Below, piece after piece: positions 7,644-36,467 of a stretch of 64,000 nucleotides of DNA. Source of the DNA: Nocardioides marmoribigeumensis (GTDB taxonomy: Bacteria > Actinomycetota > Actinomycetes > Propionibacteriales > Nocardioidaceae). The notes under the pieces are model-generated. The model was not told the DNA's origin, ran no database searches, and saw only the letters and a program-made list of their open reading frames with translations. The position numbers were made by a program, and so were the translations under genes. The stretch spans positions 1,364,001 to 1,428,000 of the forward strand of contig NZ_JAVDYG010000001.1 in assembly GCF_031458325.1 (NCBI RefSeq), read 5' to 3'. How positions within the stretch are numbered: position 1 is the first letter of the stretch; each line of letters starts with the position of its first letter.

Positions 7644-9665
<2,022 letters not shown>

Positions 9666-20961: not shown

Positions 20962-22031
20962 TCACGGATCCAGGTGTCGCGGTCGGCGGCCACCGTGCCG
21001 GGGTCGACCGAGTAGGGCTTCGGCGCGGGCTCGGCGTACTTCGCCCAGGCGGCCGGGAGCGTGGCGTCCGCGTCGACCGGGAAGACGTACATGTTGTCCG
21101 GCAGCGCCTCCTGCACCGCGCGGCTCTGCAGCCAGGCCACGACCTCGTGGGCGCCGTCGGGGTTCTTCGCGCCGTCGAGCACGCCGGCGTACTCCACCTG
21201 GCGGAAGCACGTGTCGAGCAGCGCGCTCGTGGTCGGCTTGGTCCCGCCCTTGGGGATCGTGAACGGCGGCGAGGAGTTGTAGGACAGCACGATCGGCCGG
21301 TCGCCCTCGCCGGAGGCGGTGAAGTCGCCCTCGTAGGCGTCGGTCCACGAGCCGGCGACGCGAGCGCCGTTGGCCATGAGCTTCTTCCAGTAGCCCTGCC
21401 AGCCCCCCTCGCCGGTGTCACCGTCGCCGTACGCCGCGACCGTCGTGAGCAGGAACGCGAAGCCGGGCGAGGACGTCGCCGCGCTCGGGGTCGAGAAGAG
21501 CCCCTTGTAGGCCGGCTCGGTCAGGTCGTCGAGCGTGCGCGGCTCGGGCCGGCCGTCCTTGCGGAACCACGCGTCGTCGACGTTGACGCACACGTCGCCC
21601 CAGTCGACCGGGGCGAGGGCGTGGCGGGAGTCGCCGGGCAGGTCGTAGGCGTCGGCCGAGGACGGCTGGTCGGTCGCGGCGTCGGGCGCCAGGATGCCGG
21701 CGTCGAGCGCGCGGGAGGCGAAGGTGTTGTCCATGCCGTAGACCGCGTCGGCGATCGGCGCGTCCTTGGTGAGCACCAGCTTGTTGGTGAGCTGGCCCGC
21801 GTCGCCGTTGGGGACGACCACGAGGTCGAGGCCGGTGTCCTTCTCGAACTGGCGGACCAGCGGCTTGGGCATGGCCCAGGAGTCGTGGGTGGCCAGGACG
21901 ACCTTCGTGGGCGCCTTGCCGCTGTCCTTCCGCGGCGCCTCGTCGTCGGCCGTCGAGACCGAGCATGCCGCGAGCGCCGCGGTGGAGGTGAGGACCGCCG
22001 CGACGACGCGGACGGATCGGGTGGTGCGCAC
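20937..22031 (-). CDS. ABC transporter substrate-binding lipoprotein, thiamine-type
   Basis: A 364-residue exported binding protein. The signal peptide ends in a lipobox (TAALAAC), so the mature protein is a membrane-tethered lipoprotein. The body fits the ThiB/TbpA group of periplasmic iron/thiamine/spermidine-type binding proteins: VVLATHDSWAMPKPLV near the start, GMDNTFASRALDAGIL, DWGDVCVNVDDAWF, and YNSSPPF. GTG 22031 is chosen because GGAGGAG precedes it; a longer frame would run into the riboswitch. Expression should fall when TPP is high. Confidence 0.9.
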   Translation of the reverse strand: MRTTRSVRVVAAVLTSTAALAACSVSTADDEAPRKDSGKAPTKVVLATHDSWAMPKPLVRQFEKDTGLDLVVVPNGDAGQLTNKLVLTKDAPIADAVYGMDNTFASRALDAGILAPDAATDQPSSADAYDLPGDSRHALAPVDWGDVCVNVDDAWFRKDGRPEPRTLDDLTEPAYKGLFSTPSAATSSPGFAFLLTTVAAYGDGDTGEGGWQGYWKKLMANGARVAGSWTDAYEGDFTASGEGDRPIVLSYNSSPPFTIPKGGTKPTTSALLDTCFRQVEYAGVLDGAKNPDGAHEVVAWLQSRAVQEALPDNMYVFPVDADATLPAAWAKYAEPAPKPYSVDPGTVAADRDTWIREWTDITSG

Positions 22032-22078
22032 TGCATGCTCCTCCGGTGAGGAGGGTCCCGCGTGAGCGGGAAGAGCTC

Positions 22079-22164
22079 GACTCCCTTCGCCGGTGCTAGC
22101 CGGAGCAGGTTCGAGGGTCTGCGGCCGATTCCGCACTCTCAGCGCCCGAGCGGCGCTCCCCTGT
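22079..22164 (-). promoter_or_regulatory. TPP riboswitch (THI element)
   Basis: On the minus strand the conserved pieces occur in order: GGGGAGCGC, the bulge/loop CTGAGAGTGCGG, GACCCTCGAACCTGCTCCGG, CTAGCACCGGCGAAGGGA. These are the P2–P3 and P4–P5 elements of the TPP aptamer. It ends about 50 bases before the start of the binding-protein gene, so it probably acts on translation by hiding the GGAGGAG, or on transcription just upstream. Confidence 0.95.
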
Positions 22165-22178
22165 CGTGTGGCCCCAGG

Positions 22179-23252
22179 CTAGCGCGGGCGGTAGACGGCG
22201 GTGCCGTCGACCTCGTCACGGACCAGCCGGCCGCGGGAGGCGAGCAGGTCGAGGTGGACCATCGTCTCCATCGTGGCCATGGCGCCGTTGAACGCGTCGA
22301 GCTCGCTGAACAGGCGCTCGTGGCGGGTCCAGGTCAGCTCGGTGGCGACGTCGTGGGCGGTGCTGCCGTCGGGGCCCACCTTGGCCAGGCACTGCTCGAG
22401 CCGGTCGTCGTGGTGGGCCAGCAGCTCGTCGACCCGGGCGTGCGAGCTCGGGGCGACCGGTCCGTGGGCCGGCAGCAGCACCAGGTCGGGCATCTCGCGC
22501 ACCTTGCGCAGCGAGCCGAGGAACGCTGCGAGCGGGTTGTCGGCGAAGACCAGCTCGAACCCGACCGACGGGGTGATGGTCGGGAGGACGTGGTCACCGG
22601 CGAAGAGCACACCGCGCTCGTGGTCGGCGAAGACGAAGTGACCGGCGGTGTGGCCCGGCGTCGGGACCGCGTGGAGCACGCGGTCGCCCAGCTCGATCTG
22701 CTGCTCCTCCTCGAGCCAGCGGTCCGGCAGCTCCCACATCGAGATGTCGGGGTCGGCCCCGCGGAACATGTCCTCCCAGCCCGCCGCGACGTCGAACGCC
22801 CCGCCCATCCTCAGCCGGGCCACGGTCGGGTCGGCCTCGAGGTCACCGCTGTTGAACAGGTCCAGGGTCGGCTTGTCGCCGACGCCCAGGTCGATGGTCG
22901 CGTTGCCGAACTCGCGCCGCACCGTCACGGCCTGCGTGTAGTGGTCGCGGTGCGCGTGGGTGACGAGGAAGCGCGTCACGTCGCGGACGTCGTGGCCGAT
23001 GCGGCGCAGCCCCTCGCCGAGCAGCTCGCGTCCCACCTCGATCGCCCAGCCGGCGTCGATGCAGGTGAGCCCGCCGGGGGTCTCGAGGACGTAGACGTTG
23101 ATCGCCCGCAGACCGTCCATCGGCAGCGGCAGCGGGACCCGGTGGACGCCCGGCGCGACCTGCTCGGTGGTCGGCTCGGTCCACTGCCCGCGACCCGCGA
23201 AGGGCCTGCCCTCGAGGTCGGTCATCGCGTCGGCGTCGGTGGGGTCGGTCAT
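22179..23252 (-). CDS. MBL-fold metallo-hydrolase
   Basis: A 357-residue protein of the metallo-beta-lactamase fold. The metal site is intact: THAHRDHYTQ (HxHxDH), a later PGHTAGHFVFAD and GDHVLP with the bridging Asp. The C-terminal ~100 residues form a winged-helix-like extension (HERLFSELDAFNGAMATMETMVHL) as found in lactamase-B-2-type relatives of LACTB2. Two start codons are in frame (23252, 23279); I use the shorter. It diverges from a PNPOx-like gene with about 60 bases between. The substrate, probably a thioester, ester or nucleic acid, is not predictable. Confidence 0.85.
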   Translation of the reverse strand: MTDPTDADAMTDLEGRPFAGRGQWTEPTTEQVAPGVHRVPLPLPMDGLRAINVYVLETPGGLTCIDAGWAIEVGRELLGEGLRRIGHDVRDVTRFLVTHAHRDHYTQAVTVRREFGNATIDLGVGDKPTLDLFNSGDLEADPTVARLRMGGAFDVAAGWEDMFRGADPDISMWELPDRWLEEEQQIELGDRVLHAVPTPGHTAGHFVFADHERGVLFAGDHVLPTITPSVGFELVFADNPLAAFLGSLRKVREMPDLVLLPAHGPVAPSSHARVDELLAHHDDRLEQCLAKVGPDGSTAHDVATELTWTRHERLFSELDAFNGAMATMETMVHLDLLASRGRLVRDEVDGTAVYRPR

Positions 23253-23311
23253 CCCGCCATCCTGCCCGGTCCGGTCCATCCGGCGCGGGGGTGGTGGCGG
23301 ATACTCCCCGC

Positions 23312-23980
23312 ATGGCCATGGACCAGCCTCTCCCCGTCGACGACGTGACCCGCGTGCGCCGGGAGCCGCACCGCCAGGTCACCGACCGCGCTGCGCTCCA
23401 CGCGATCCTGGACGAGGCGCTGATGGCGCACGTGGCCGTCGTACGGGACGGGCTGCCGCTGGTGCTGCCGTTCGCGGTGGCCCGCGACGGCGACACGCTC
23501 CTGCTGCACGGGTCGTCGGGGGCCGGTGGTCTGCGTCTGGGGGCGGGCGGCCCGGTGTGCGTGAGCGTCACGCACGTCGACGGCCTGGTGTTCGCGCGGA
23601 CGACCTTCGAGTCCTCGATGCGCTACCGCTCGGCCGTGGTCCACGGCATCGCCGAGGTCGTGCCCGACGACGACAAGGAGCACGCGCTCGAGGTGCTGTC
23701 GGACCACCTCTTCGCCGGGCGTACGGCGGAGGTGCGGCGCCCCTCGCGCAAGGAGCTCGCCGCCACGCTCGTGCTGCGGCTGCCCCTGGACTCGGCCTCG
23801 GTGAAGGTGGCCGCCGGGCCGCTCGAGGTCGACCCCGAGGACGTGGAGCCGCGCGAGGTGTGGGCGGGGATCGTGCCCATGGCGCTCACCGCGGGCGAGC
23901 CGGTCGCCGGGCCCGACGTGCCGGACGACGTCGCGGTGCCGGGGTCGGTGGTGCGGACCCGGCAGCGGTTCAGCGGCTGA
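23312..23980 (+). CDS. Pyridoxamine 5'-phosphate oxidase-like flavin-binding protein
   Basis: A 222-residue protein of the PNPOx-like split-barrel fold: ALMAHVAVVRDGLPLVLPFAVARDGD forms the first strands, LLLHGSSGAGGL the flavin-phosphate loop, and SMRYRSAVVHGIAEVV the dimer strand, as in the Pyridox_ox_2 / NimA-type group. Members bind FMN, F420 or heme and most are not true pyridoxine oxidases. ATG 23312 and ATG 23318 are both possible; neither has a strong Shine–Dalgarno. Its 3' end overlaps the convergent DapB-like gene by 11 bases. Confidence 0.82.
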   Translation: MAMDQPLPVDDVTRVRREPHRQVTDRAALHAILDEALMAHVAVVRDGLPLVLPFAVARDGDTLLLHGSSGAGGLRLGAGGPVCVSVTHVDGLVFARTTFESSMRYRSAVVHGIAEVVPDDDKEHALEVLSDHLFAGRTAEVRRPSRKELAATLVLRLPLDSASVKVAAGPLEVDPEDVEPREVWAGIVPMALTAGEPVAGPDVPDDVAVPGSVVRTRQRFSG

Positions 23981-25043
23981 CGAGGCCGCGCCCCGTCACC
24001 AGGGGCAGGTCGAGGGCGGTCACGAGACCGGGCGGCGCGTCGACCACGGCACCGACGGCGTTGACCAGCCGCATCGCGGTGACGATCATCCCCGAGACGT
24101 TGTGGTCGCCGTCCTCCCCGTGGTGGGAGAAGTCGAGGGTCATCATCGGCTCGCCGGTGATCTCGACGCGGTAGCAGCCGTCGCCCGTGGCCGGCTGCGG
24201 CCAGTCGGGCCGCTGCTCGGGGTGGGTCCGGGTGACGTGCTCGAGCGCCACCCGCGGGACGCCGTCGACCTTGCCGACCACCTGGAACCGCACCGCGCAC
24301 CGGGTGCCGGCGGGGACCTCACCGCTGACGGTGGAGTAGTCGCGCTCGGCCTCGGCGAACTCCACCTGCTCCTCGAGCGGCTCGTCGAGGGTCAGGTCGA
24401 GCCCCGCCGCGATGATCCGCACGACCGAGCCCCACGCCATCGTGAGGATGCCGCCGGAGAACAGCGGGGGCACCTCGTCCATCGGCTTGCCGAAGCCGTA
24501 GAGGGTCTGGTTGACGAACGGCTGGTAGTAGGTCGAGTAGTCGGCGATCTCGTAGCACCGCACCTGGTCGATGCGCTGCGACAGCGAGGTCATCACCAGG
24601 GGCAGCACGTCGTTGGCGAAGCCCGGGTCGATGCCGTTGACGTGCAGCGAGGCGCCGCCGCGCTCCCCGGCGTCCTGGAGGCCCTGGACCATCTCGTCGG
24701 GGATGACGCCGTGCGGCCACTGCAGGAAGACCGGTCCGCTGGAGACCACGTCGATGCCGGCCGCGAGCAGCTCCTCGAACAGCGTGAGCGCGGCGAACGG
24801 GTCGGCGTCGGTCATCGCGGTGTGCACCACGACGTCGGGCCGCAGCGCGACCAGCTCGTCCTTGTGCATGGTGGCGGTCAGCCCGATCGGCTCGCCGCCG
24901 CACAGCTCGCCCACGTCCTTGCCGTGCTTCTCCTCGCTGGAGACCCAGACGCCCACCAGCTCGAGGTCGGGGTGGGCGAGGATGCCCGCGATCGCGTGCT
25001 TGCCGACGGTGCCGGTCGACCACTCGACCACGCGCAGGGTCAT
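23970..25043 (-). CDS. NAD(P)-dependent dehydrogenase, DapB-like (amine dehydrogenase family)
   Basis: A 357-residue protein with an N-terminal Rossmann fold of the dihydrodipicolinate-reductase type ([17 protein letters not shown], then [15 protein letters not shown]). The remaining two thirds correspond to the family annotated as NAD(P)H-dependent amine dehydrogenase, related to 2,4-diaminopentanoate dehydrogenase; in actinobacteria such genes often sit in steroid or terpenoid degradation loci. It is the third gene of an operon with an SDR and an old-yellow-enzyme homologue and its start overlaps the SDR stop (ATGA). Substrate unknown. Confidence 0.8.
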
Positions 25044-25876
25044 GACTGCTCCTTGACGGTGAGGTCGGGCAGGCCCAGGTCGAGGTTGGGCCGGTCGAGG
25101 CCGCCGTCGACCTCGATCACCTTGCCGGTGACGTAGCCGCCGGCGCGGCTGGCCAGCCAGAGGGCGGTGGCCGCGATGTCCTCCACCTCGCCGATGCGGC
25201 GCAGCGGGGTGACCTCCTCCATCGCGTGGCGGGTCTCCTCGTGGCCGGCGACGAACTCCAGCGCGGACGTCATCACCGAGCCGACCGCGATCGCGTTGAC
25301 CGTGATGTGCGGGTCGAGGTCGCGCGCCGCCAGGCGGGTCCAGTGGCTCAGCGCCGCCTTGGCGGTGCCGTAGGCGAGGTAGCCGCGACCGGCCACGCGG
25401 CCCATCACCGAGGAGATGTTGACGATGCTGCCCGCGCGGGCCGGGCCGTCGCCCTGGTCGTCGGCGGACGCGAGCATCAGCGGCACCGCCGCGCGGCTCA
25501 GCGCGTGGGCGGTCGACACGTTGAACCGGAACGCCTCCTCGAGGTAGTCCGGCGTCGTGTCGAGGAAGGCGTTGGGGATCGTGCCGCCCACGTTGTTGAC
25601 CACGACGTCGAGGCGACCGAGGTCGTCGTACGCCCGCTGGGCGAGGGCGGCGACCTGGTCGAGGTCGCTCAGGTCGGCGGGTACGAGGACCGCGCGCCGG
25701 CCGAGCGCCTCGACCTGCGCGGCGACGTCGGCGAGCTGGGCCTCGGTGCGCGAGGACAGGACGACGTCGGCCCCCGCCTCGGCCAGGGCGAGGGCGCAGC
25801 CGGCGCCGATGCCGCGCCCGGCGCCGGTGACCACCGCGACCTTGCCGTCGAGGCGGAAGCGGTCGAGGACGGTCAT
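25040..25876 (-). CDS. Short-chain dehydrogenase/reductase
   Basis: A 278-residue classical SDR: cofactor loop [26 protein letters not shown], catalytic Ser in IVNISSVMG and the YxxxK pair in [10 protein letters not shown], then [13 protein letters not shown]. The acidic end of strand 2 is absent (SSRTEAQ), so NADP(H) or mixed specificity is plausible. The start is fixed by the ATGA overlap with the upstream oxidoreductase gene. With the flanking genes it forms a coupled redox operon preceded by a KstR-type site, compatible with steroid or acyl-CoA side-chain metabolism. Confidence 0.9.
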
Positions 25877-27084
25877 GAGGCTGCTCCTTGGCGGGTGATC
25901 TGGAGGGGTTCGGGGTCGTCGAGCAGGCAGCGCGTGCCGGAGTAGATGCTCGGCATGCAGCGGTTGCAGTGGATGCAGGTCGAGCGGCGGGCCTCGCCGG
26001 ACTCGAAGCGCCGGGGCAGGTCGGGGTCGCGCACGAGCGAGCGGCCGAGCGCCACGAACTCGAAGCCCGCCTCGCGGGCCCGGGTCATCGCGTCGGCCGT
26101 GTCGAGCCCACCGAGGGCGACCAGCGGCAGCTCGAGGCGCTCGCGGAAGCGGATCGCGGTGTCGAGCAGGAAGGCGGGCTTGTAGGGGTACTCCTTGAGG
26201 AACCGGCCGCCCCACCGCGCCATCCCCCAGCTCAGCGGCTTGGGCATCGCGGCCGCGAACTCCTGGAGCGGCACCGGGCCGTGGAAGAGGTACATCGGGT
26301 TGAGCAGGCTCGACCCGGCCGAGAGCTCCATCGCGTCGAGGCAGCCGTCGGCCTCCAGCCAGCTCGCGACGTCGAGCGCCTCCTCGACCTGGAGCCCACC
26401 GCGCACGCCGTCGGTCATGCCGAGCTTGGCGTAGACGGCGACCTCGTCGCCCACCTCCTCCTTGACCGCGCGCACCACCCGCCGGGGGTAGGCCGCGCGG
26501 TTGCCCAGGCTGCCGCCGTACGCGTCACGACGGCGGTTGCTGAGGGGGCTGAGGAAGGAGGAGAGGAGGTAGCCGTGGCCGAGGTGGAGCTCGAGGGCGT
26601 CGAAGCCTGCCCGCACGGCCAGGCGGGCGCCCTGGACGTAGTCACGCAGGACGCGGTCGAGGTCGGCGGAGCTCGCCCGGCGCACCATCTGCATGCTCAT
26701 CGGGTTGGGCATGGCGGTCGGGGCGATCGCGTGCCTGCCGTTGGAGCGGCCGTTGGCGACCGGCCCGGCGTGCCCGACCTGCGCGGCGACGTGGGCGCCC
26801 TCGGCGTGGACGGCGTCGGTGAGCCGGACCAGGCCGGGCAGGGCCTCCTCGCGGAGGTGCACCTGCTCGCGGTGCGTGCGGCCCTCGGGGGCCACCGCGA
26901 CGTAGGCCATGGTCGTCATCGCGATGCCGCCGGCGGCGATGCGCCGGTGGAACTCGACGAGCTCGTCGGTGACCAGGGCGTCGGGGGTCCGGCCCTCGAA
27001 GGTGGCCGCCTTGAGCAGGCGGTTGCGCAGCGTGAGCGGCCCGAACGGTGCGGGCTCGAAGACGGTCGGCGGCGTCGCTGGCAC
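25873..27084 (-). CDS. NADH:flavin oxidoreductase (old yellow enzyme family)
   Basis: A 403-residue FMN TIM-barrel enzyme: [14 protein letters not shown] at the N-terminus, [29 protein letters not shown] with the active-site His region, [12 protein letters not shown], and [12 protein letters not shown] near the end. It ends with CIHCNRC...C, the spacing of the iron–sulfur ligands of the 2,4-dienoyl-CoA reductase group, yet it lacks that group's C-terminal FAD/NADPH domain. The start at GTG 27084 lies only nine bases from the KstR-type palindrome, so the mRNA leader is very short or absent. Substrate class is likely an alpha,beta-unsaturated ketone or acyl-CoA. Confidence 0.87.
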
Positions 27085-27092
27085 CGCGAAAC

Positions 27093-27106
27093 TGTAACAG
27101 GTTCTA
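27093..27106. promoter_or_regulatory. KstR-type operator
   Basis: TGTAACAGGTTCTA matches TnnAACnnGTTnnA, the published consensus of the TetR-family steroid regulator KstR, at every fixed position. It lies nine bases from the start codon of the oxidoreductase operon, where a bound repressor would block the promoter, and also upstream of the divergent gene at 27234. Confidence 0.6.
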
Positions 27107-27233
27107 GTTCTGGGCGGCAGGGTGGTGCAGCCCACCCCTAAGGGCGGTTCGGGGGCGTCCTCCACGGGGGATACCTCTCCGGACGACACGGGCACCGCCG
27201 CACCCGCGCGGCACGAGATCGAGGGAGACCCCC

Positions 27234-28094
27234 ATGACCGACCACCAGGGCCTGAGCGCCGAGGAGCTCGCCGCCGAGAGCGTGTCCGCGCTGCCGGACA
27301 AGGAGGTCGTCTCGATCCTCGACCTCGACCTCGACGTGGACCTCGCCATCGACGCGGCCGCCCCGATCGACCTCGCCGTGGCGGCCAACGCCAACATCGC
27401 CGCCCCGATCGACGCGGCCGTCAGCGGCAACATCCTGTCCGAGGGCTCGACCGCCCAGGCGCTGTCCGACCAGGGCGTGATCATCGACCAGGGCCTCGAC
27501 GCCGACGCGACGGCCACCTCCGACCAGACGTCCGGCATCGACCAGGGCAACGACGTCGTCGACGCCGGCACGACCGACCCCGCCACCGCGACGGACCCGG
27601 CCGCAGCGACGGACCCGGATGCGGCGACGCTGGCCGCGGACGGCACCGGTGGGCTCGTGGACGGCGCCGTGGACGGTGCGACCGGCGCTGTGGGCAGCGC
27701 CGTGGACGGCACGGACGGCACGCTCGACGGGACCGTGGGCGGCGTGACCGACGGCGTGACCGGCACCACCGACGGCGTCGGCGGCGTCGTGGACGGCGTC
27801 GGTGGCGCGGTGGACGGTGCGGCCGGCTCGATCAACACGACCGACGCCCTCAACGGCAACCTGCTCGACCTCAACGTCAACGTCGACGCGGACGCCGACC
27901 TGTCGGCCCCGATCGCCGGCGGCGTGGCGGCCAACGCCAACGTCGCGGCGCCGATCGACGCCGCCGTCGCGGCCAACGTCGGCTCGGTCGACTCCGACGC
28001 GGTCGCGGTCTCCCAGCAGGACGCGATCATCAACCAGGACCTGACCGGCACGGCAGACGCCAACGCCGCGCAGGACTCCGACATCACCCAGTAA
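27234..28094 (+). CDS. Acidic two-domain repeat protein, putative precursor/substrate
   Basis: A 286-residue, very acidic protein with hardly any aromatic or Cys residues. A leader-like N-terminus (LSAEELAAESVSALPDKEVV) precedes a domain with AAPIDLAVAANANIAAPIDA, and a second copy near the C-terminus reads SAPIAGGVAANANVAAPIDA; both are followed by a similar ...DQGVIIDQGL / ...QDAIINQDLT element. Between them lies an Asp/Gly/Thr-rich linker of DGxV-type repeats. No classical signal peptide or transmembrane segment is present. ATG 27234 has a good Shine–Dalgarno (GAGGGAG). The stop at 28094 is immediately followed by the start of an M50 protease with a PqqD-like domain, so this is a candidate substrate for that protein. 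No described family recognised. Confidence 0.8.
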   Translation: MTDHQGLSAEELAAESVSALPDKEVVSILDLDLDVDLAIDAAAPIDLAVAANANIAAPIDAAVSGNILSEGSTAQALSDQGVIIDQGLDADATATSDQTSGIDQGNDVVDAGTTDPATATDPAAATDPDAATLAADGTGGLVDGAVDGATGAVGSAVDGTDGTLDGTVGGVTDGVTGTTDGVGGVVDGVGGAVDGAAGSINTTDALNGNLLDLNVNVDADADLSAPIAGGVAANANVAAPIDAAVAANVGSVDSDAVAVSQQDAIINQDLTGTADANAAQDSDITQ

Positions 28095-30416
28095 GTGACG
28101 GTCGACGCCCAGGCGCTGCAGCGCGCCGAGGGCCTGACGCTCATCGGCGAGATGGAGGGGTCCGGCTACCGGACCCCTCCCGCTCTCGTCCGGCGCGCCG
28201 ACGGCCAGACGCTGCAGGTGACGCCGCTGCTCTACGTCCTGCTCGAGGCGGTCGACGGCCGGCGTACGCCCGAGGAGGTCGCCCGGGTCGTCGCCGAGCG
28301 CACCGGCAAGCCGGTGTCGGCGGCCAACGTGGAGACGCTGGTCGAGGACCAGCTGCGCCCCCTCGGCCTCCTCACCCGCGCCGACGGCAGCGAGCCCGAG
28401 CTCAAGCGGTCCAACCCGCTGCTCGGGCTCCGCGGCAAGGTGGCCGTCACCGACCCCGACCGGACCCGCGCGCTCACCGACCCGTTCCGGGTGCTGTTCT
28501 CCCCGCTGGTGTGGGTGCCGCTGGTGGCCGGCTTCCTCCTGCTGACCTGGTGGCTGTTCTTCGACAAGGGCCTGGCGAAGTCGGCCAAGGACGCCTTCGA
28601 CCGGCCCCTGCTGCTGCTCCTGGTGTTCGTGGTGACGGTCCTCTCGGCCGGGTTCCACGAGTTCGGCCACGCGGCCGCGGCCCGCAAGGGCGGGGCCCAG
28701 CCCGGGGTCATGGGCGCCGGCATCTACCTGATGTGGCCGGCGTTCTACACCGACGTCACCGACAGCTACCGGCTCGGCCGGCTCGGCCGGCTGCGCACCG
28801 ACCTCGGCGGTCTCTACTTCAACGCCATCGTGGCCGTCGCCATCACCGGCGCCTGGTGGGCGACGGGTTGGGACGCCCTGCTGCTGGTCGTGGTCACCCA
28901 GATTCTCCAGATGATGCGCCAGGTGATGCCGCTGGTGCGGTTCGACGGCTACCACGTGCTGGCCGACCTCACCGGCGTGCCCGACCTCTACTCGAGGATC
29001 GGCCCGATCCTCACCTCGCTGTGGCCCCCGCGCTGGAGCAAGGACGCGCGGGTCACGCAGCTCAAGACCTGGACCCGCGTCGTGGTCACCGCGTGGGTCC
29101 TGGTCACGGTCCCGGTGCTGCTCATCGGTCTCACGGCGATGGCTCTGAGCCTGCCCCGCGTGGCCGCGACCGCCTGGGCCTCGCTCGGGCGGGAGGCCGA
29201 CGCCGTCCAGCAGGCCGCCTCGCAGATGGAGGTCGTCGACCTCCTCGCCGGCCTGCTCTCGCTGGTGGCCATCGCGTTCCCGGTCCTGGCCAGCGCCATG
29301 ATCCTGGTCCGCCTCGTGCGCCGGCTGCTCACCACCGGCTGGCGGCGTACGGCGGGCAGCAGGGTCAAGCGCGCGCTGTTCCTCCTGCTGGTGGGCGCCG
29401 TCGTGGCCGGCCTGGCGTTCGCCTGGTGGCCGCGCACGGGCAGCTACCGGCCGATCCGGGAGGGCGAGCGGGGCACCCTGACCGACCTGGTCTCCGCCAC
29501 CGGCGCCGCCCGCGTGGCACCGGTGTCCGCCTCCGGGCGCGCGCAGACCCACCCCCGTGGTCGCGCCGTCACGGTGCTGCCCCAGGGCAAGGCGCTCCCG
29601 ACGGAGGCCGAGCCCATGCAGGCGCTCGTGCTGGTGCCGACCGGGACCACCGGCGACGGGACCACGGGCACCACCAGCGCGAGCGAGGCGCCGACGTGGG
29701 TCTTCCCCTTCGACCAGCCGCTGCCGCCCGGCGAGGGCGACACCCAGGCGATGGCGGTCAACACCACCGACGGGTCGGTCCAGTACGACGTCGCGATGGC
29801 GATGGTGTGGGTCGAGGACGGCGCCGAGCAGGAGGTCGACAACACCAACGAGGCCTACGCCTTCGCCTCCTGCAAGGACTGCGTCACCGTCGCGGTCTCC
29901 TTCCAGGTCGTGGTGGTCGTCGGTCAGGCCGACGTCGTGGTGCCCAAGAACGTCTCGGCCGCGGTCAACTACGACTGCTTCGAGTGCCTCACGGCGGCGG
30001 TCGCCAAGCAGCTCGTCGTGACCGTCGACGCGCTGCCCGGCAAGGAGCAGCTCGTCGCGCTGAGCGACATCTGGGCCGACCTGGCCGAGTTCGCGCAGAC
30101 GATCCCGACGCTGTCGCTGCAGGAGCTGATGGACCAGCTCGAGGACTTCGAGGAGCAGATCAAGCAGGTGCTCACCGGCGCCGTGGAGCAGGCCCCGCCC
30201 GTCGCCTTCCCCACTGCCGGGCCCACCGCCGGCCCCACGGCCGGCGACGACCCCTCGGCGAGCCCGACGGCGACGCCGACGGATGCGGAGTCCAGCGCGC
30301 CGTCACCCTCGGGCTCGGCGACCTCCTCGCCGACTCCGACCGGGAGCGCGAGCCCGACCGGGACGCCCTCGGCGGCGGAGACGACGCCGGTCGCCGAGGA
30401 GAGCCCGACCTCCTAG
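28095..30416 (+). CDS. Membrane M50-type metalloprotease with PqqD-like N-terminal domain
   Basis: A 773-residue protein. Residues ~35–100 (LYVLLEAVDGRRTPEEVARV onward) look like a PqqD/RRE-type winged helix that binds peptide leaders. Hydrophobic segments follow, with HEFGH at 188–192 in the second one and FDGYH with Asp284 as third ligand, the site-2-protease pattern of M50; several more helices end near residue 455. The C-terminal region is extracytoplasmic-like, with two CxxC-type pairs (CKDC, CFEC) in a beta-rich domain, then a Pro/Thr/Ser/Gly tail. The GTG start directly abuts the stop of the acidic repeat gene, so translation is coupled. Role inferred: processing and/or export of the upstream protein. 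Biochemical function is unknown. Confidence 0.82.
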   Translation: MTVDAQALQRAEGLTLIGEMEGSGYRTPPALVRRADGQTLQVTPLLYVLLEAVDGRRTPEEVARVVAERTGKPVSAANVETLVEDQLRPLGLLTRADGSEPELKRSNPLLGLRGKVAVTDPDRTRALTDPFRVLFSPLVWVPLVAGFLLLTWWLFFDKGLAKSAKDAFDRPLLLLLVFVVTVLSAGFHEFGHAAAARKGGAQPGVMGAGIYLMWPAFYTDVTDSYRLGRLGRLRTDLGGLYFNAIVAVAITGAWWATGWDALLLVVVTQILQMMRQVMPLVRFDGYHVLADLTGVPDLYSRIGPILTSLWPPRWSKDARVTQLKTWTRVVVTAWVLVTVPVLLIGLTAMALSLPRVAATAWASLGREADAVQQAASQMEVVDLLAGLLSLVAIAFPVLASAMILVRLVRRLLTTGWRRTAGSRVKRALFLLLVGAVVAGLAFAWWPRTGSYRPIREGERGTLTDLVSATGAARVAPVSASGRAQTHPRGRAVTVLPQGKALPTEAEPMQALVLVPTGTTGDGTTGTTSASEAPTWVFPFDQPLPPGEGDTQAMAVNTTDGSVQYDVAMAMVWVEDGAEQEVDNTNEAYAFASCKDCVTVAVSFQVVVVVGQADVVVPKNVSAAVNYDCFECLTAAVAKQLVVTVDALPGKEQLVALSDIWADLAEFAQTIPTLSLQELMDQLEDFEEQIKQVLTGAVEQAPPVAFPTAGPTAGPTAGDDPSASPTATPTDAESSAPSPSGSATSSPTPTGSASPTGTPSAAETTPVAEESPTS

Positions 30417-31180
30417 CCCGTGGCCCCGGTCGTCCGCAGCACGACGTCGGCGACCATCGCCGGGTCGTCGAGCATCGGCACGTGCCCGAGCCCGGGGAGG
30501 ATCACGAAGCGAGCGCCCGGGACGGTCCGGCGGGCGGCCGGCAGGCCGTCGCGCATCGGGAGGATGCGGTCCCGCTCCGACCACGCGATGGTGACCGGGC
30601 ACGGCAGCGGGTCGAACGGGTCGACCGCCTCGTCGGTGTCGAGGATGTCGTCGAGGACCAGGCAGCCCGCGAGGTCACGGGCCGCCTGGACCGAGGTCGT
30701 CGCGCTCACCAGGTGACCGCGAGCCGACACCCCACCCAGCGCGGTCCGTCGTACGACGCCCAGCCGGTGCGGCAGCGGGCCGAGGGGACGGCTCAGCCTC
30801 TCCAGGAGCGCGATCCTGCGCAACGCCCTGACCGGTGCCCCGCGACCACGCCCGTCCTCGCCCCAGAACCCGCCGGGCGACAGGGCGGTCGCGGAGAGGG
30901 CCCGTCCCCGACGGGCGAGCTCGATGGCCATCCAGCCGCCGAGCGAGTTGCCCGCCACGTGGACCCGGTCGAGACCGTCGGCGTCGAGGCGTCGCTCGAG
31001 GTCGTCGACGAGGTGGGTGACGCGCACCGGGCGCTCGGCGACGGGCTCGCCGCCGCGGTGGCCGAGGGCCGTCGGGGTCCGGACGTCGTGATGACCCGCG
31101 ACCAGGGGGATCACCGGGCGCCAGACGCGCCCGGACATGGTCACGCCGTGCAGCAGGACGAGAGGAGCGCGATCGGTCAC
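30413..31180 (-). CDS. Alpha/beta hydrolase
   Basis: A 255-residue alpha/beta-hydrolase: oxyanion motif LVLLHGVTMSGRVW, nucleophile elbow GNSLGGW, acid in WSERDRILP, and catalytic His in LPGLGHVPMLDDP. The GTG start at 31180 (VTDRAPLVLLHG) begins exactly at the first strand; earlier in-frame codons would add an unrelated segment over the intergenic region. No signal peptide. It is convergent with the M50 gene, overlapping by four bases at the stops. Ester- or lactone-type substrate cannot be predicted. Confidence 0.88.
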   Translation of the reverse strand: MTDRAPLVLLHGVTMSGRVWRPVIPLVAGHHDVRTPTALGHRGGEPVAERPVRVTHLVDDLERRLDADGLDRVHVAGNSLGGWMAIELARRGRALSATALSPGGFWGEDGRGRGAPVRALRRIALLERLSRPLGPLPHRLGVVRRTALGGVSARGHLVSATTSVQAARDLAGCLVLDDILDTDEAVDPFDPLPCPVTIAWSERDRILPMRDGLPAARRTVPGARFVILPGLGHVPMLDDPAMVADVVLRTTGATG

Positions 31181-31358
31181 CGGTGCATCATGACGGACCG
31201 AGACCGAACGTCCTGCCGTGGTGGCTAAACGTCCCGAACCGAATAGCCCGTTGTGGTCTGGACCGAACACCCAAAGGTCCCAGGATCTAGGTCCCGAGTC
31301 GGTCATCTGGTGCTTCACTCTCTTTCATCGTTCGCCACCTGATATTGGGAGAGATCCG

Positions 31359-32903
31359 GTGCTACGTCCCCCCACCTCTGCTGTCCTCGCCGCTGCCGTC
31401 GCCGGCTCGGTCCTCGTCTCGGGACTGCTCAGCCCCGCCGAGGCCGCCGGCAAGAAGGGCCCGACCGACAGGTCGGCCCCCACCGTCTCGATCACCGCGC
31501 CGAGCTCGTCGAGCTCGGTCGGGGGCACCGTGTCCGTCAAGGGCTCCGGCAGCGACAACGTCGCGCTGTCCTCGGTCTCGGTCTCCGTGGACGGCGGCGC
31601 CTGGAGCACCGCCTCCGGCACGTCGTCCTGGAGCTGGTCCTGGAACACCGCGTCGCTGTCCGACGGCAGCCACACCGTCGCCGCCCGCGCGGTCGACACC
31701 AGCGGCAACGCCTCGACCTCGAGCGTGACGGTGAACGTGAGCAACACCAGCGTCGCCTCCGCCGACACCACCGCCCCGACCGTGGCCTTCTCGGCCCCCG
31801 CCGCCGGCTCCACCGTCTCCGGCTCGGTCGCCGTGAAGGGCGGCGCCGCGGACGACTCGATGCTCGCCAAGGTCGAGGTCAGGGTCGACAGCGGCACCTG
31901 GCAGGTCGCCTCCGGCACGTCCAGCTGGTCCTGGACCTGGCCGACCGGGTCGTACGCCGACGGCGGGCACACGCTCTTCGTCCGCGCCACCGACGGCGCC
32001 GGCAACGTGAGCTCCACCGGCACCCGCTCGGTGACGGTGTCCAACACCTCTGCCGACACCACCGGGCCGGCGCTGGCGATCACGACCCCGTCCAACGGCT
32101 CGACCATCACCGGGACGGTCAGCGTCCAGGGGACGGTGTCCGACCCGAGCGGCGTCTCCAAGCTCGAGGTGTCGGTCGACGGACGGGCCTGGCAGAACGT
32201 GATCGTGCGCTCGTCCTGGTCCTGGGCGTGGGTGACCGGCCGGCTGTCCAACGGCGCGCACACGCTGAGGGCCAGGGCCATCGACGCCACGGGCAACGCG
32301 AGCATCACCTCGCTCCAGGTGAACGTCGACAACCCCTGCCTCAGCGGCGGCCCCGTGCTGTCGCAGTCGGTGACCGCCGAGGGTGTCGTGATCCGCATCT
32401 GCACCACGACCGGAGGCTGGACGACGTCGGCGATCGAGAGCCTGCTGCGGGACAACGCGCGCGACCTCGTCGCCGTCGGACCGGACCTCGTGCTCGAGAT
32501 CCAGACCGCCATCCCGACCAGCGAGGCCACCGGCGTGGGGTCCGAGGGTCCCAACTCGGTGGTCTACCTCAACTCGGGCTCGTCCTCGAGCTTCCAGAGC
32601 CTCCCGCAGGCCCTGATGGCCCACGAGTACGGGCACGCCTGGACGAACCACTGGTTCTACGCCAACCCCGCCGACGGTCGTTCCTGGGACGGCTATCTCG
32701 CGGCTCGGGGTCTGACCGGGGACCCCCGGATCGACAGCTCCTACAACTGGACCACCGGCGAGATGGCGGCCGACGACTACCGCCGGCTCTTCGGGAGCCC
32801 GCTGGCTCAGTCGCAGATGAAGTACCTCAACTCCGACGTCCCTGACTCGCAGGCCGTCGCAGGGCTGGCCGACTTCTTCACCAACCAGTTCGCGATGCCC
32901 TGA
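31359..32903 (+). CDS. Secreted protein with three Ig-like repeats and HEYGH metallopeptidase-like domain
   Basis: A 514-residue exported protein. The GTG at 31359 follows GGGAGAG and starts a Sec signal peptide ending near AEAAG. Three Ig-like repeats of about 95 residues follow, each beginning with D-x-x-x-P and containing SSWSW, ending in a Val/Asn strand; this is the Big-type fold used for adhesion. The C-terminal ~170 residues contain LMAHEYGHAWTNHW with His422, Glu423, His426, and GEMAADDYRRLFG about 60 residues on, a gluzincin-like zinc site. No sorting motif or C-terminal helix is present, so it is probably released. Likely a secreted peptidase; substrate unknown. Confidence 0.75.
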   Translation: MLRPPTSAVLAAAVAGSVLVSGLLSPAEAAGKKGPTDRSAPTVSITAPSSSSSVGGTVSVKGSGSDNVALSSVSVSVDGGAWSTASGTSSWSWSWNTASLSDGSHTVAARAVDTSGNASTSSVTVNVSNTSVASADTTAPTVAFSAPAAGSTVSGSVAVKGGAADDSMLAKVEVRVDSGTWQVASGTSSWSWTWPTGSYADGGHTLFVRATDGAGNVSSTGTRSVTVSNTSADTTGPALAITTPSNGSTITGTVSVQGTVSDPSGVSKLEVSVDGRAWQNVIVRSSWSWAWVTGRLSNGAHTLRARAIDATGNASITSLQVNVDNPCLSGGPVLSQSVTAEGVVIRICTTTGGWTTSAIESLLRDNARDLVAVGPDLVLEIQTAIPTSEATGVGSEGPNSVVYLNSGSSSSFQSLPQALMAHEYGHAWTNHWFYANPADGRSWDGYLAARGLTGDPRIDSSYNWTTGEMAADDYRRLFGSPLAQSQMKYLNSDVPDSQAVAGLADFFTNQFAMP

Positions 32904-32927
32904 TCGACGACCACGAGGAACGACGGC

Positions 32928-32953
32928 GGGGCCGGTGCAGGTGCACCGGCCCC
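32928..32953. terminator. Bidirectional terminator hairpin
   Basis: GGGGCCGGTGC at 32928–32938 pairs perfectly with 32943–32953 across the loop AGGT. It sits between two convergent genes ending at 32903 and 32981. No long U tract on either strand. Confidence 0.8.
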
Positions 32954-32980
32954 GTCGCCACGTCCTGGGTCTGGCCCCAG

Positions 32981-35900
32981 CTACAGGACGTTGTTGTTGT
33001 ACTTGTCCAACGTGGTGGCCAAGGCGTTCATCGCCGTCTTGTCCGCCGCGCTGATCGTGGCGTGGGTGTTCCCGTTGAAGTTGTACTTCCCGAGGAGCTT
33101 CACGGCCTGGTTGATCTGCGTCGTGACCGTCGTCGCGGCACCCGCCTTGTAGTTCAGCTGGGCCGCCACGAGCTGGGCTGCCATGTTGAACGCCGGGTCA
33201 CTGGCCATCTTCTTGCCGGTGAAGGTCGACTTGTTGAGCAGCGCCACAGCCTTGGCACAGTCGACGGCCTTGTTGGGGTCCGACCCTGCGTAGAGCTTCA
33301 GGTCGTCCGGCGTGCTCGGGTCGAACAGCGGCCAGCCACCGTTGTCGGCGGCGACCACCATGCCGGCGGTCCCGTAGAGGAAGAGCGCCTGGTCGAGGCT
33401 GTTCTTCTTCTTCAGGGCCGACTTGGTGCACGAGGACCAGTTCTTCCAGTAGCCGATGGTCAGCGCCGAGCCGCCCGGCGGACGCCGGTTGTTGACGTTG
33501 AACACCGTCGGGTCGGGGCCTGGCTGCGCGACGAAGTCGACGCAGTAGGTGTCGTTGACGACGCCGGGGTTGAGGGTCGTGCCGTCCGCGAGGAACTGCT
33601 CGGGCACGAACTGGGTGGCGCCCAGCTCGACCTCCCAGCCGACCGCCGGCAGCGTCTCGCACAGCTGGTAGTGGCTGCCCGGGGTCAGCGAGGCCGCGAA
33701 GCTGATCACTCCGCCGTTGGCCGCGTTGGCCGTGCCGGACTCCACCAGGCTGCAGGGGTGGCCGATGATCTTCGTGGCCCCGGTGCACAGCTTGAAGGCG
33801 AAGGAGTCCGAGCCACTGGGAGCAGCCTTGCCGCTGCCGTCGCTGGCCGAGACCGTCTTGACCACCTTGGCCTTGCCCTTGCGGGTGTTGGTCACCGTCG
33901 ACGCGGCGGTGCTGCCGGTGGCGCCGGGAGCCACGTTGACGCTGGAGGGGCTGATGGTCTTGATCCACTCGATGCCCGGGTCCTGCTCGGTCACCGTGTA
34001 GGTGCCCGGCTTGATGTCCGTCCAGAGGACGTCACCGCCGCCGATGCCGACCGACTTGCAGTTCGGGGTCGCGTAGCTCGGACCCGCGATGCAGATGTTG
34101 AACGACGTGCCGACCAGCGTGCCGCCCGCGTCGTTGACGTTGACGGTCTTGTGGACCTTCAGGGCGCCACGCTGCGTGTTGGTGATCTGGCAGGAGTCGA
34201 ACACCTGGTCTGCGTCCTCCGGGTAGTTCACCGTGAACGAGCAGCCCGTGCTGCCCGTCTGGTCCCAGCCGGACTTCGCCGTCTCCGTGATGGTGTAGGT
34301 GCCCTCCTGGAGCGGCGTGGTGAACGTGGCCACGCCATTGGCGTCCGTCGTCGCGGCCTCGCCCGTGGCGCCCGTGCCCGGCCCGGACAGGGTGAAGACC
34401 CATCCCGCCGCCAGGCCGTCCGTGTCGGGCACGGTCAGCTTGGTCGCCTTGGCGGTGGCGGGTCCGTAGCGGTTGTTGAAGGTCAGCTCACCGGAGCAGC
34501 CGTTGGGCAGGAACCCGTCGAGCGTCGCCGACTGGTCGGTCTGCGCGACGTACGGCGGGTTGGTGACCTCCGAGACGGTGTACTGGTCGGGCGCCAGGCC
34601 GGTGATCGCCGGGAGCAGCTTGTTGAACTCGCCGGCGGTGAAGGTCACCGACGGCGTGGCCACGGTCTCCAGCGCCGAGTTCTTGACCACGAAGTCGAAC
34701 GTCTGCGTCTCGCTGCCGGTCAGGTCGTTGGGGATCGTCTTGCGGATCCCCAGCGCCACCGTGGTGTCGACGTCGACGTCGATGTTCTGCTGGTCGCTGT
34801 TGACCGGCGTCCCACCTGTCGGCGACGCCGTGGCGACGTCGGAGAGCACAGCGCTGGCGATGTTGCCCTGGGTGGAGGTGATCGTCTTGGTGAACGTCAC
34901 CGAGCCGCCGCCGTCCACCGAGCCCGAGGACCAGCCGACGTGGGTGGCGCCCGAGACCGGTGTGCCGGCCACGTAGCCGCCGGTGAACGAACCCGTCGAC
35001 GGCGCGGCCACGGAGAAGCTGACGCCGGTGGCCGAGGTGCTCCACCACTCGTCGTCGGTGATGACGGCGGTGTCCCCTGAGCCGCTGGACCCCTGGACGA
35101 CGGTCGCGGTCTTGAACGCGGTCGTGTTGCCGGGCACCGCGACGCCGGTGGCCTCGTCGGTGTAGGTCGCGGTCGCGCGGTCACTGACCACACCGCCCGT
35201 CACGTCATCCGGGTCGAGGGTGAACGATGCTGTGACGATGGGCAGGGACGTGTTGGCGGGGACCGTGGCGGAGCCGCTGAGCGTCTGGAGGACCGTCCCC
35301 GTGCCGGTGTCGTTGCCGTAGACGAGGTCGGTCACGCTGACGTCGATCGGGCGGGACGCCGGGTTGACCGCCGTGACCGTGGTGGTCACGTTGATCATGC
35401 CGCCGACTCCCTCGTTCTTGGTCCAGGTGACCGTGATCTCGGCCGTGCCCGTGCCGCTGTCGGGCGCACAGGTGTCACCGAGGTCGACGCGGGCCGGGCC
35501 CCTCTTGCTGACGCCCCAGGTGTAGTCCGTGCCCTGGGAGGCGTTCATCGACTTGGTCAGGTCCTGGGGAAGGATCTCGTTGACCGGGATCGACACCTCC
35601 TTGGAACCGATGCCGGCCGTGGTGAGCCCGTCGTTGGTGAGGTTGAAGTGGAGCGAGCTGCCGGAGTACAGGTGCGAACCCAGCGCGAGCCGCGCGTAGG
35701 CGTCGTACACGCACCTGGAGTTCTTGGCCTGGCCCGTGACCGACACGGTGCGGTAGAGGCTGTCGTCCGTGCCGCCGAGGCCCGGGAGCTTGTGCAGCTG
35801 GCCGGAGACGCTTGCCGTGCCGCACGTGCCGGAGCTGAGAGCGGCGTTGAGGACCGGCTCGGAGAGGACGTCGTAGCCCGGCTTGCCCGCGTCCTTGTAG

Positions 35901-36241
35901 TCGACCACCAGGGCGAACGTCAGGTTCTGCGTGCTCGGCGCCGAGTTGCCGGCCGCAACCGTGACGCGGGCAGGCACGAGGTCGAGCTCGTTCCAGCCCT
36001 TGCCCAGGTTGCCGGTGGTGTAGGCCGACGTGGGGCAGATGAACTTCCCCGCGATCGGCAGCGTGATGTCGCCGTTGTTGCGACAACCCTCGAGCGTGTA
36101 GCTGACGCCGTCGCCCGTGGTGGCGGCGGTGGCAGCAGGTGCGGTGACGACCATCGCAAGGCCGCTCACCGTGACGGCCGTCACCGCGGTCGCGGCGATC
36201 GGTCGACGAAGTGACCGCAGGGCGGTCCGGAGCTTGTTCAT
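32981..36241 (-). CDS. Large secreted surface protein with prealbumin-like repeats
   Basis: A 1086-residue exported protein. A signal peptide (RRPIAATAVTAVTVSGLAMV ... ATAA) is followed by an N-terminal domain of about 230 residues, then DUF11-like and SpaA/Cna-B-like prealbumin modules recognisable by repeated GTYTVTE, GTYTITE, DQYTVSEV endings and by N-T-[QR]-[RK]-G linkers. The C-terminal ~180 residues form a separate domain starting GSALTIGYWKNWSSC, seen in other actinobacterial surface proteins. There is no LPxTG motif or terminal hydrophobic helix, so attachment to the envelope is not by sortase. The ATG is preceded by a 226-base region shared with a divergent exported-protein gene. Confidence 0.8.
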   Translation of the reverse strand: MNKLRTALRSLRRPIAATAVTAVTVSGLAMVVTAPAATAATTGDGVSYTLEGCRNNGDITLPIAGKFICPTSAYTTGNLGKGWNELDLVPARVTVAAGNSAPSTQNLTFALVVDYKDAGKPGYDVLSEPVLNAALSSGTCGTASVSGQLHKLPGLGGTDDSLYRTVSVTGQAKNSRCVYDAYARLALGSHLYSGSSLHFNLTNDGLTTAGIGSKEVSIPVNEILPQDLTKSMNASQGTDYTWGVSKRGPARVDLGDTCAPDSGTGTAEITVTWTKNEGVGGMINVTTTVTAVNPASRPIDVSVTDLVYGNDTGTGTVLQTLSGSATVPANTSLPIVTASFTLDPDDVTGGVVSDRATATYTDEATGVAVPGNTTAFKTATVVQGSSGSGDTAVITDDEWWSTSATGVSFSVAAPSTGSFTGGYVAGTPVSGATHVGWSSGSVDGGGSVTFTKTITSTQGNIASAVLSDVATASPTGGTPVNSDQQNIDVDVDTTVALGIRKTIPNDLTGSETQTFDFVVKNSALETVATPSVTFTAGEFNKLLPAITGLAPDQYTVSEVTNPPYVAQTDQSATLDGFLPNGCSGELTFNNRYGPATAKATKLTVPDTDGLAAGWVFTLSGPGTGATGEAATTDANGVATFTTPLQEGTYTITETAKSGWDQTGSTGCSFTVNYPEDADQVFDSCQITNTQRGALKVHKTVNVNDAGGTLVGTSFNICIAGPSYATPNCKSVGIGGGDVLWTDIKPGTYTVTEQDPGIEWIKTISPSSVNVAPGATGSTAASTVTNTRKGKAKVVKTVSASDGSGKAAPSGSDSFAFKLCTGATKIIGHPCSLVESGTANAANGGVISFAASLTPGSHYQLCETLPAVGWEVELGATQFVPEQFLADGTTLNPGVVNDTYCVDFVAQPGPDPTVFNVNNRRPPGGSALTIGYWKNWSSCTKSALKKKNSLDQALFLYGTAGMVVAADNGGWPLFDPSTPDDLKLYAGSDPNKAVDCAKAVALLNKSTFTGKKMASDPAFNMAAQLVAAQLNYKAGAATTVTTQINQAVKLLGKYNFNGNTHATISAADKTAMNALATTLDKYNNNVL

Positions 36242-36467
36242 GTGTCTGTGCCCCCAAGCAGCAGATGGATGGCCGATCCCAGACTCGGCCGTTTGGCCTC
36301 ATCGTCTGCCCTGTCGGCCGATGCGCCCTACAGCGAATGGGCACGCCAAACCCACCGAAGGTCACGAGATTTCGAGGACTTGAGGTCCCTGTCCGGACAA
36401 AGGGCCCGATGCGTAGCCCATCCCGTGCCGACTCGTTGGACAGCAGAGGGCCGGACGAGGAGGGACC
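36242..36467. promoter_or_regulatory. Shared divergent promoter region of two exported-protein genes
   Basis: This 226-base stretch contains the promoters of both the large surface protein (minus) and the propeller protein (plus). A perfect 10-base palindrome, TGTCCGGACA, lies at 36390–36399 and extends imperfectly with CCC/GGG on each side; it could be an operator. Clear -35/-10 pairs were not obvious by eye. Confidence 0.4.

Follow-up and report, generated by a model that had tools for sequence, protein, structure and literature searches.

A leader-bearing repeat protein and an RRE/site-2 protease with a CxxC outer domain in Nocardioides marmoribigeumensis: probable fused form of a conserved three-part actinobacterial system

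In a 64,000-nucleotide stretch of the Nocardioides marmoribigeumensis genome (contig NZ_JAVDYG010000001.1, positions 1,364,001 to 1,428,000; hereafter the window), we analysed a two-gene unit encoding an acidic repeat protein, P0001, and a membrane protein, P0002, which joins a PqqD-like winged helix, a site-2 protease core and an outer domain with CxxC motifs. The unit is probably the fused form of a conserved actinobacterial maturation/export system with three parts: a precursor, a site-2 protease carrying a recognition element (RRE) of the kind that serves ribosomally synthesized and post-translationally modified peptides (RiPPs), and a CxxC partner. Other loci encode short precursors and separate CxxC proteins, and hence the version in the window would be a fused, enlarged form of the three-part system. 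It is very likely that the precursor, protease and CxxC parts work as one functional unit.

Results

Co-occurrence of the precursor, protease and CxxC parts

P0001 and P0002 form an isolated pair on the forward strand, and the TAA stop codon of P0001 (28092-28094) is followed without a gap by the GTG start codon of P0002 (28095). The first-pass annotation, made from the letters of the window, had described a leader-like repeat protein whose stop codon joins directly to the GTG of a PqqD-M50-Cys protein, and this was confirmed from the open reading frames (ORFs), the structure model and the alignments. Since conserved orthologs exist for each, both ORFs are more than chance frames. A scan of genome contigs with P0002 retrieved six relatives (three from Nocardioides and one each from Arthrobacter, Geodermatophilus and a Chloroflexi-labelled record), and in 6/6 of them a P0001-like gene lies immediately upstream of the protease gene. 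The same arrangement was found in G002, from the same genus, in G015 and in both copies of G027 (G and L numbers denote genomes and loci). The proteins of L004, labelled as a Chloroflexi metagenome-assembled genome, are 64% and 60% identical to the window pair; this record is possibly a mis-binned actinobacterial contig.

The distribution of the system is patchy. It was found in 2 of the 5 genomes of the genus sample, that of the window included, and 4 of the 26 genomes of the family sample encode the full-length protease (>1100 bits), with weak tail matches only in 2 more. A close protease (347 bits or more) was present in 13 of the 55 genomes of the class sample, where the next score was 81.5, a strong/weak split that was set after the scores were seen. 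The precursor family was detected in 11 of these 13 genomes and in none of the 42 others (Fisher 6.5e-10, a value that ignores relatedness, three of the genomes being one genus). Both genomes missed by the precursor model carry diverged leader-bearing ORFs; those of G088 score 2.1e-5 and 8.3e-7 when the locus sequences are scanned, and that of G111 was judged by eye. Within the window's own genome, the model matched nothing beyond the two P0001 cores at E values up to 1. The phylum sample (55 genomes) yielded a strong protease in 4 genomes, all 4 of which encode the CxxC domain.

Outside the window, a precursor match was found in the same stretch at 23 of the 27 strong loci (16/20 for loci not used in the model) and a CxxC match at 24 of the 27, 17 fused and 7 separate (10/13 for loci not used in the model); the precursor model had been built with 7 of these loci and the CxxC model with 14. 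Neither part was detected at any of five weak PqqD-M50 loci (L038, L039, L044, L082, L083). Among the strong loci lacking a precursor match, L073 ends at a contig edge, and three precursors lie on a different contig of the same genome; in L012, L013 and L079, an LLPxR leader in small ORFs was identified solely by pattern and eye. Conservation of the pair across genomes, which the first-pass annotation had named beforehand as one test that could refute its proposal, held. Weak PqqD-M50-type proteins are also encoded at L028 and L033, with C-terminal stretches that by eye resemble two cyclic-nucleotide-binding repeats. Plasmid searches returned two distant Streptomyces forms, annotated as hypothetical proteins, and a weak Muribaculaceae match; a search started from the Streptomyces protein brought up annotated mpaP genes, together with a few weak matches in Hymenobacter and Gemmatirosa. 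The plasmid search with a separate CxxC protein gave its own record alone, and the search of phage records gave no match.

P0001 and the short precursors

P0001 has a leader-like N-terminus, LSAEELAAESVSALPDKEVVSILDL, and two cores of ~70-80 residues each with the motif VAANAN.AAPIDA. It contains 49 acidic residues, no Cys and a single Lys/Arg; this residue sits in the leader, and hence there is no Lys or Arg beyond residue 32. Among the seven sequences of alignment A1, the mean majority fraction was 0.84 in the leader, 0.82 and 0.79 in the cores and 0.45 in the linker. When P0001 was compared with its same-genus ortholog in G002 (Nei-Gojobori), the ratio of nonsynonymous to synonymous change (dN/dS) was about 0.27 in the leader, 0.40 and 0.45 in the two cores, and 0.61 in the linker. 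The most hydrophobic 19-residue stretch, residues 33-51, comes directly after the leader motif and is moderate (hydropathy 1.36), and in the four short precursors checked it is similarly placed. In the precursors of L009, L017 and L020, the linker between the cores consists of DSAGNVIG..D..TGNVV-like repeats, which we take to be adhesin-like, as against the D/G/T/V-rich linker in the window.

The split layout has short precursors, three each in L036, L037, L072 and L074, two in L078 and one in L077. They are RiPP-like, with a leader of the form LxxEEL...LPERE and one core, as in L036 8522-8737 (...LSKEELEALAGEELPERAVMSLINANIAAPINAALALNVLSDNSTAIAQATQVAPITQTN); those of L036 are divergent from the protease gene. 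A separate CxxC gene lies downstream of the protease gene in L036 and L037. When P0001 was aligned with six short precursors from two loci, leader and core were found in common, with an insertion of ~22 residues between them, and by this comparison P0001 looks like a precursor enlarged to two cores. Upstream of the short precursors of L037, a small ORF (9331-9582) has a core-like stretch, INAVIAANVGEKGSVSHVSSKQ, and no leader, and is possibly a degenerate core peptide. None of P0001, P0002, four short precursors, one CxxC protein and three protease relatives reaches a curated Pfam/NCBIfam cut-off.

RiPPs typically have several short precursors that share a conserved leader, and the daptide and epipeptide proteases are nearest to P0002. 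These features would suit an ordinary RiPP pathway in which tailoring enzymes are remote or locus-specific, the protease frees a modified bioactive peptide (antimicrobial or signal) and the double-core protein is an enlarged precursor. We consider such a pathway unlikely, because precursors of >200 amino acids with very acidic, linker-separated cores are unlike small bioactive peptides, and because clustering of the neighbourhoods (28 loci, 4.9-17 kb each, blastp at 1e-12, by which unshared enzymes would be missed) found no modifying enzyme common to them; an unshared or remote enzyme could still act. Pfam assigned the 8 neighbours in L072 and the 11 in the window to ordinary metabolic genes or to nothing. 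A family common to L069, L072 and L073 is represented in L072 by an aldehyde dehydrogenase.

P0002 models as an RRE fused to a site-2 protease

The AlphaFold model of P0002 was built with 7 sequences and has a mean predicted local distance difference test (pLDDT) score of 62.6; it is fair to good at residues 31-100 (block means of 78-91). With VIA-align, residues 5-98 of this predicted model were superimposed on TbiB1 (5v1v, solved with leader peptides; Z 8.5, root-mean-square deviation 2.8, 84 residues aligned), TruD (4bs9, Z 7.0) and ThcOx (5lq4, Z 6.8), and residues 39-94 gave a weak NCBIfam match to ApyI (E 0.0046), far under the cut-off. Residues 113-285 were superimposed on the Methanocaldococcus site-2 protease 3b4r (Z 7.2, deviation 3.9, 117 aligned). 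No variation in H188, E189, H192, D284, G285 or Y286 occurs among the 8 sequences aligned, which include the two distant Streptomyces plasmid forms, and the HExxH and distal Asp motifs lie in modelled membrane helices, as defines M50/site-2 proteases; the Pfam scan of P0002 gave no match to M50 or to any other family. By model and by alignment to solved folds, P0002 models as an RRE fused to a site-2 protease. Measured against the G002 ortholog, the RRE has a dN/dS of 0.36, the protease region one of 0.41 and the outer domain one of 0.60, and the tail is at about 1. dN is lower than dS in the leader and cores of P0001, in the RRE, protease region and outer domain of P0002 and in both linkers, and only the P0002 tail is near neutral. 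Foldseek found nothing at E 0.001 or better for the P0002 model, FapC at rank 4 (E 0.57, probability 0.07) was not taken as evidence, and a PDB sequence search with A3 was without a match.

The precursor alignment and the fold match thus place a conserved P0001-type leader beside an RRE-like domain in P0002. The first-pass annotation had proposed that the PqqD domain recognises the leader, and homology lends support to this: elsewhere, next to the same protease, this leader motif begins short RiPP-like precursors, and the modelled fold of the domain is that of an RRE. On these grounds, the RRE likely recognises the leader.

Site-2 proteases commonly act in regulated intramembrane proteolysis, in which case the repeat protein would sense or regulate at the surface or envelope and be cut in the manner of anti-sigma factors. 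For P0001 we hold this to be very improbable. P0001 has no clear transmembrane segment, an RRE-like domain occupies the place where a PDZ domain would sit, and other loci have short precursors. Furthermore, no sigma factor is common to the neighbourhoods, and a histidine-kinase family present in 8 loci was set aside, as its positions and orientations vary.

The CxxC outer domain and its separate relatives

The outer domain was modelled, at low to modest confidence, as six strands pairing into three strand-turn-strand units with a helical hairpin after them. All separate CxxC proteins with a visible start (L013, L036, L037, L073, L078) have a signal-like N-terminal stretch by eye, so that the C-terminal domain of P0002, which reads as the fused form of the separate CxxC partner, probably faces outside. 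PDB sequence searches with alignment A5 matched short helical stretches at the C-terminus (a lectin region scored best, E 0.0019), none of which passed alone, and with A6 one match (0.073) that is not meaningful.

Signal-like starts of the separate proteins, and with them a domain that is probably outside, would equally suit a P0002 that is mainly a leader-dependent translocator or anchor, with proteolysis minor and the repeat protein staying on the CxxC domain; no other exporter is common nearby. We judge this quite unlikely, since the zinc-site residues, invariant in 8 homologs of which two are distant, argue for catalysis.

Several loci vary in their make-up. The protease frame of L078 (6611-8899) bears at its C-terminus an ATPase domain of the ParA/CbiA type (Pfam CbiA, 5.4e-10), and the CxxC protein of this locus has three CxxC motifs. 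CxxC genes are also present at L080 8131-8775 (G073) and L081 8282-8923 (G034), where the A3 model found no protease; L081 is at a contig edge. Beside the CxxC gene, five split-layout loci have a further gene for a lipoprotein-like protein, presumably resembling LppX/LprG, of which the L037 member had no Pfam match at cut-off.

A proposed route from leader recognition to the cell surface

In the mechanism that we favour, the precursor leader (LxxEEL...LP[DE][KR]E) would be bound by the P0002 RRE in the cytoplasm, and the site-2 core would cleave this precursor close to the stretch of moderate hydrophobicity that directly follows the leader. The cut would free the core protein on the outer side, where the CxxC domain, outside the membrane, may receive, fold or nucleate the cores at the cell surface, possibly through similar strand-turn-strand repeats. 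Binding, cleavage, the export route and assembly are steps that we infer, and they differ in strength: cleavage of the precursor by the protease is quite probable, export through or together with the protease is somewhat doubtful, and co-assembly of the cores with the CxxC domain is speculative and rather unlikely. Cutting and transport of the repeat protein had also been put forward in the first-pass annotation, and we treat them in the same conditional way, although the zinc-site residues are conserved. If the mechanism is true, RRE-guided leader recognition and intramembrane proteolysis would serve large secreted proteins without shared modifying enzymes, and would provide a maturation or export route for actinobacterial leader-bearing proteins that lack Sec-type signals.

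Several observations weigh against this mechanism. By eye, P0001 lacks a signal peptide, and it contains no clear membrane segment (the best 19-residue stretch being only moderately hydrophobic), which is awkward for an intramembrane substrate, and its predicted structure is unusable (pLDDT 38.7). Residues 5-98 of P0002 match non-RRE winged helices about equally well (a domain of Rv2067c, Z 8.6; Rickettsia protein lysine methyltransferases and GdmN, 7.0 to 7.7), and with scores so comparable the fold by itself is no proof of an RRE. The Z of 7.2 against 3b4r falls in a range that the alignment tool rates as common, and the strands of the outer domain were modelled at pLDDT 46-69. A CxxC gene was not detected in 3 of the 27 strong loci (L012, L077, L079), and two genomes of the phylum sample, G073 and G034, have a CxxC gene without a detected protease. 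The clustering of 28 loci found no exporter common to the neighbourhoods. Precedents that speak for the mechanism are MpaP, to which daptide leader removal is assigned (PMC10036551), and the M50 protease EpeP, considered to cleave EpeX and export it (PMC10885120, PMC7614699, as far as the accessible parts of these sources go); against it, according to the part of PMC10885120 at hand, some EpeX production remained when epeP was deleted.

A likeness between the core and the CxxC repeat bears on the mechanism from both sides: its weakness counts against it, and the ranking by a core-only model counts in its favour. The core pattern P.[DN].AvAxN..S..S...A.A.Q and the second CxxC repeat, P.N.A.A.N..C..C...A.A.Q, stand in gapless register. 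In hhalign on hand-cut segments, picked after the likeness was noticed, the comparison was weak (P 0.00098, probability 21.8%), and 0 of 5000 column permutations reached its score. Against the uncut CxxC alignment, the probability was 2.3% and the score was matched by 7 of 300 shuffles; A6 against A5 gave a different register at a probability of 1.0%. When a core-only hidden Markov model was run over 6232 frames, three of the 26 CxxC frames came at ranks 31, 34 and 35 (E 0.02 to 0.28), among the most diverged precursors. The best CxxC proteins scored 13.8, 12.8 and 10.1 bits, which is suggestive only; the control with reversed sequences gave up to 14.1 bits, from a reversed precursor frame, and 8.6 bits for the best of the other frames. 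A Mann-Whitney value for these ranks was discarded as not independent evidence, the CxxC proteins being related and long. Altogether there is a hint that the core and the CxxC domain share a repeat. Taken further, the hint would point to an actinobacterial surface-assembly system in which the protease gates and cuts unmodified repeat proteins, and the CxxC domain, as a version of the substrate repeat (N.AvAxN..[S/C]..[S/C]..A.A.Q), nucleates their polymerisation. We regard such a system as improbable; if it existed, RiPP-style leader recognition would have been turned from peptide natural products to the building of extracellular structure.

Locus layout and neighbouring genes

The features of the unit, its flanking genes and the lipoprotein-like frames of the split-layout loci are collected in Table 1. 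P0001 is overlapped by an antisense ORF of 346 amino acids (27104-28144, reverse strand) that had no match in the Pfam scan; the conserved reading is the sense one. A promoter/terminator scan found nothing. Pfam assigned 11 neighbouring ORFs (19330-38162) to transport, hydrolase, oxidase and dehydrogenase genes, an Ig-repeat protein and a SpaA-domain protein, with one ORF unmatched; a short-chain dehydrogenase/reductase (PF13561) among them lies on the opposite strand amid metabolic genes. The ORF at 31218-32903 has three Ig-like repeats (Pfam Big_7) and an HEYGH motif close to its C-terminus, and may be a metallopeptidase. The ORF at 32981-36241 (reverse strand) encodes a surface-type protein of 1086 amino acids with a SpaA domain (Pfam, 9.3e-10).

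Table 1 Coordinates of the P0001/P0002 unit, its flanking genes and lipoprotein-like frames at other loci
Feature	Coordinates	Strand	Evidence
Ribosome-binding-like GAGGGAGA, 5 nt upstream of the P0001 ATG	27221..27228	+	Sequence reading
P0001, acidic leader-bearing double-core repeat protein, 286 aa, ATG start, TAA included	27234..28094	+	Orthologs in alignment A1
P0001 leader, residues 1-32 (LSAEELAAE..ALPDKEVVSILDL)	27234..27329	+	Aligned to leaders of six short precursors, two loci; conserved
P0001 core copy 1, residues about 33-105	27330..27548	+	Ortholog and short-precursor alignments, precursor model
P0001 variable D/G/T/V-rich linker, residues about 106-203	27549..27842	+	Low mean majority fraction
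P0001 core copy 2, residues about 204-286	27843..28091	+	Ortholog alignment, precursor model
P0002, RRE/PqqD - site-2 protease - CxxC outer domain protein (as modelled), 773 aa, GTG start, stop included	28095..30416	+	ORF list, orthologs
P0002 RRE/PqqD-like winged helix, residues 5-98	28107..28388	+	Model, fold alignment; weak NCBIfam match
P0002 predicted site-2 (M50) protease membrane region, residues 113-450	28431..29444	+	3b4r alignment; NF041824 match below cut-off
P0002 HEFGH zinc motif, residues 188-192	28656..28670	+	Alignment; second motif FDGY, residues 283-286
P0002 last hydrophobic segment before outer domain, residues 423-447	29361..29435	+	Hydropathy; model helix 423-444
P0002 outer domain, residues 535-695, CKDC and CFEC	29697..30179	+	Alignment A5; separate protein in L036, L037
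P0002 P/T/S-rich tail, residues 696-773	30180..30413	+	Sequence; dN about equal to dS
NADH:flavin oxidoreductase, flanking gene	25876-27195	-	Pfam
Alpha/beta hydrolase, flanking gene	30416-31318	-	Pfam
Lipoprotein-like frame, L036	4964-6052		
Lipoprotein-like frame, L037	5169-6014		
Lipoprotein-like frame, L072	8884-10464		
Lipoprotein-like frame, L073	5050-6099		
Lipoprotein-like frame, L074	9778-10719		

Comparison with known systems

Curli, built from CsgA and CsgB, are a nucleated surface polymer. Like curli-type polymers, the present system would have a secreted repeat subunit and a surface-held partner, possibly with similar repeats, the resemblance of the repeats being weak; the Pfam scan of P0001 and P0002 gave no match at all, curlin included. 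TbiB1, TruD and ThcOx serve lasso peptide and cyanobactin pathways. They share a similar fold with residues 5-98 of P0002, whereas in P0002 it is joined to a membrane protease.

The epipeptide protease EpeP/YydH/LiaK (NF058609) is likewise an M50 membrane protease. The match of P0002 to this family is weak (1.8e-6; 27.8 bits against a cut-off of 225), and three protease relatives score 39-58 bits. The epe cluster contains a radical SAM epimerase (PMC7614699, in the part available), whereas none was found among the 11 window neighbours by Pfam.

Closest are the daptide proteases MpaP/DapP (NF041824), in which an RRE likewise sits at the N-terminus of a site-2 protease of the intramembrane type, and several leader peptides are encoded next to it; in the accessible part of PMC10036551, MpaP is assigned the removal of the daptide leader, and RRE-site-2-protease fusions served to discover daptides. 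The protease architecture of P0002 is therefore not new. P0002 matches NF041824 (daptide_HExxH) over residues 30-298 with E 7.3e-31 and 107.6 bits, below the cut-off of 300, and the three protease relatives score 105.6, 109.2 and 77 bits. The first-pass annotation, knowing of no described system with this pair, had suggested a possible new one, a suggestion that is too strong in view of the MpaP/DapP fusions beside leader peptides; what stands of it is narrower, in that we found no description in the open-access literature of a substrate the size of a protein, of a CxxC partner or of such a system without common tailoring enzymes. That literature gave no account of the trio, of a protein-sized leader-bearing substrate or of a CxxC partner, and accounts may exist elsewhere. 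The aminotransferase, iron-type alcohol dehydrogenase and methyltransferase of daptide clusters are absent among the 11 window neighbours by Pfam, and none of the daptide enzyme families (oxidative decarboxylase, aminotransferase, methyltransferase) is common to the 28 loci. Daptide precursors have the leader ELExMEAP and a C-terminal Thr, whereas the leader here is LxxEEL...LP[DE][KR]E and P0001 ends in Gln. Unlike daptides, P0001 and P0002 combine a large acidic protein substrate with a CxxC outer domain.

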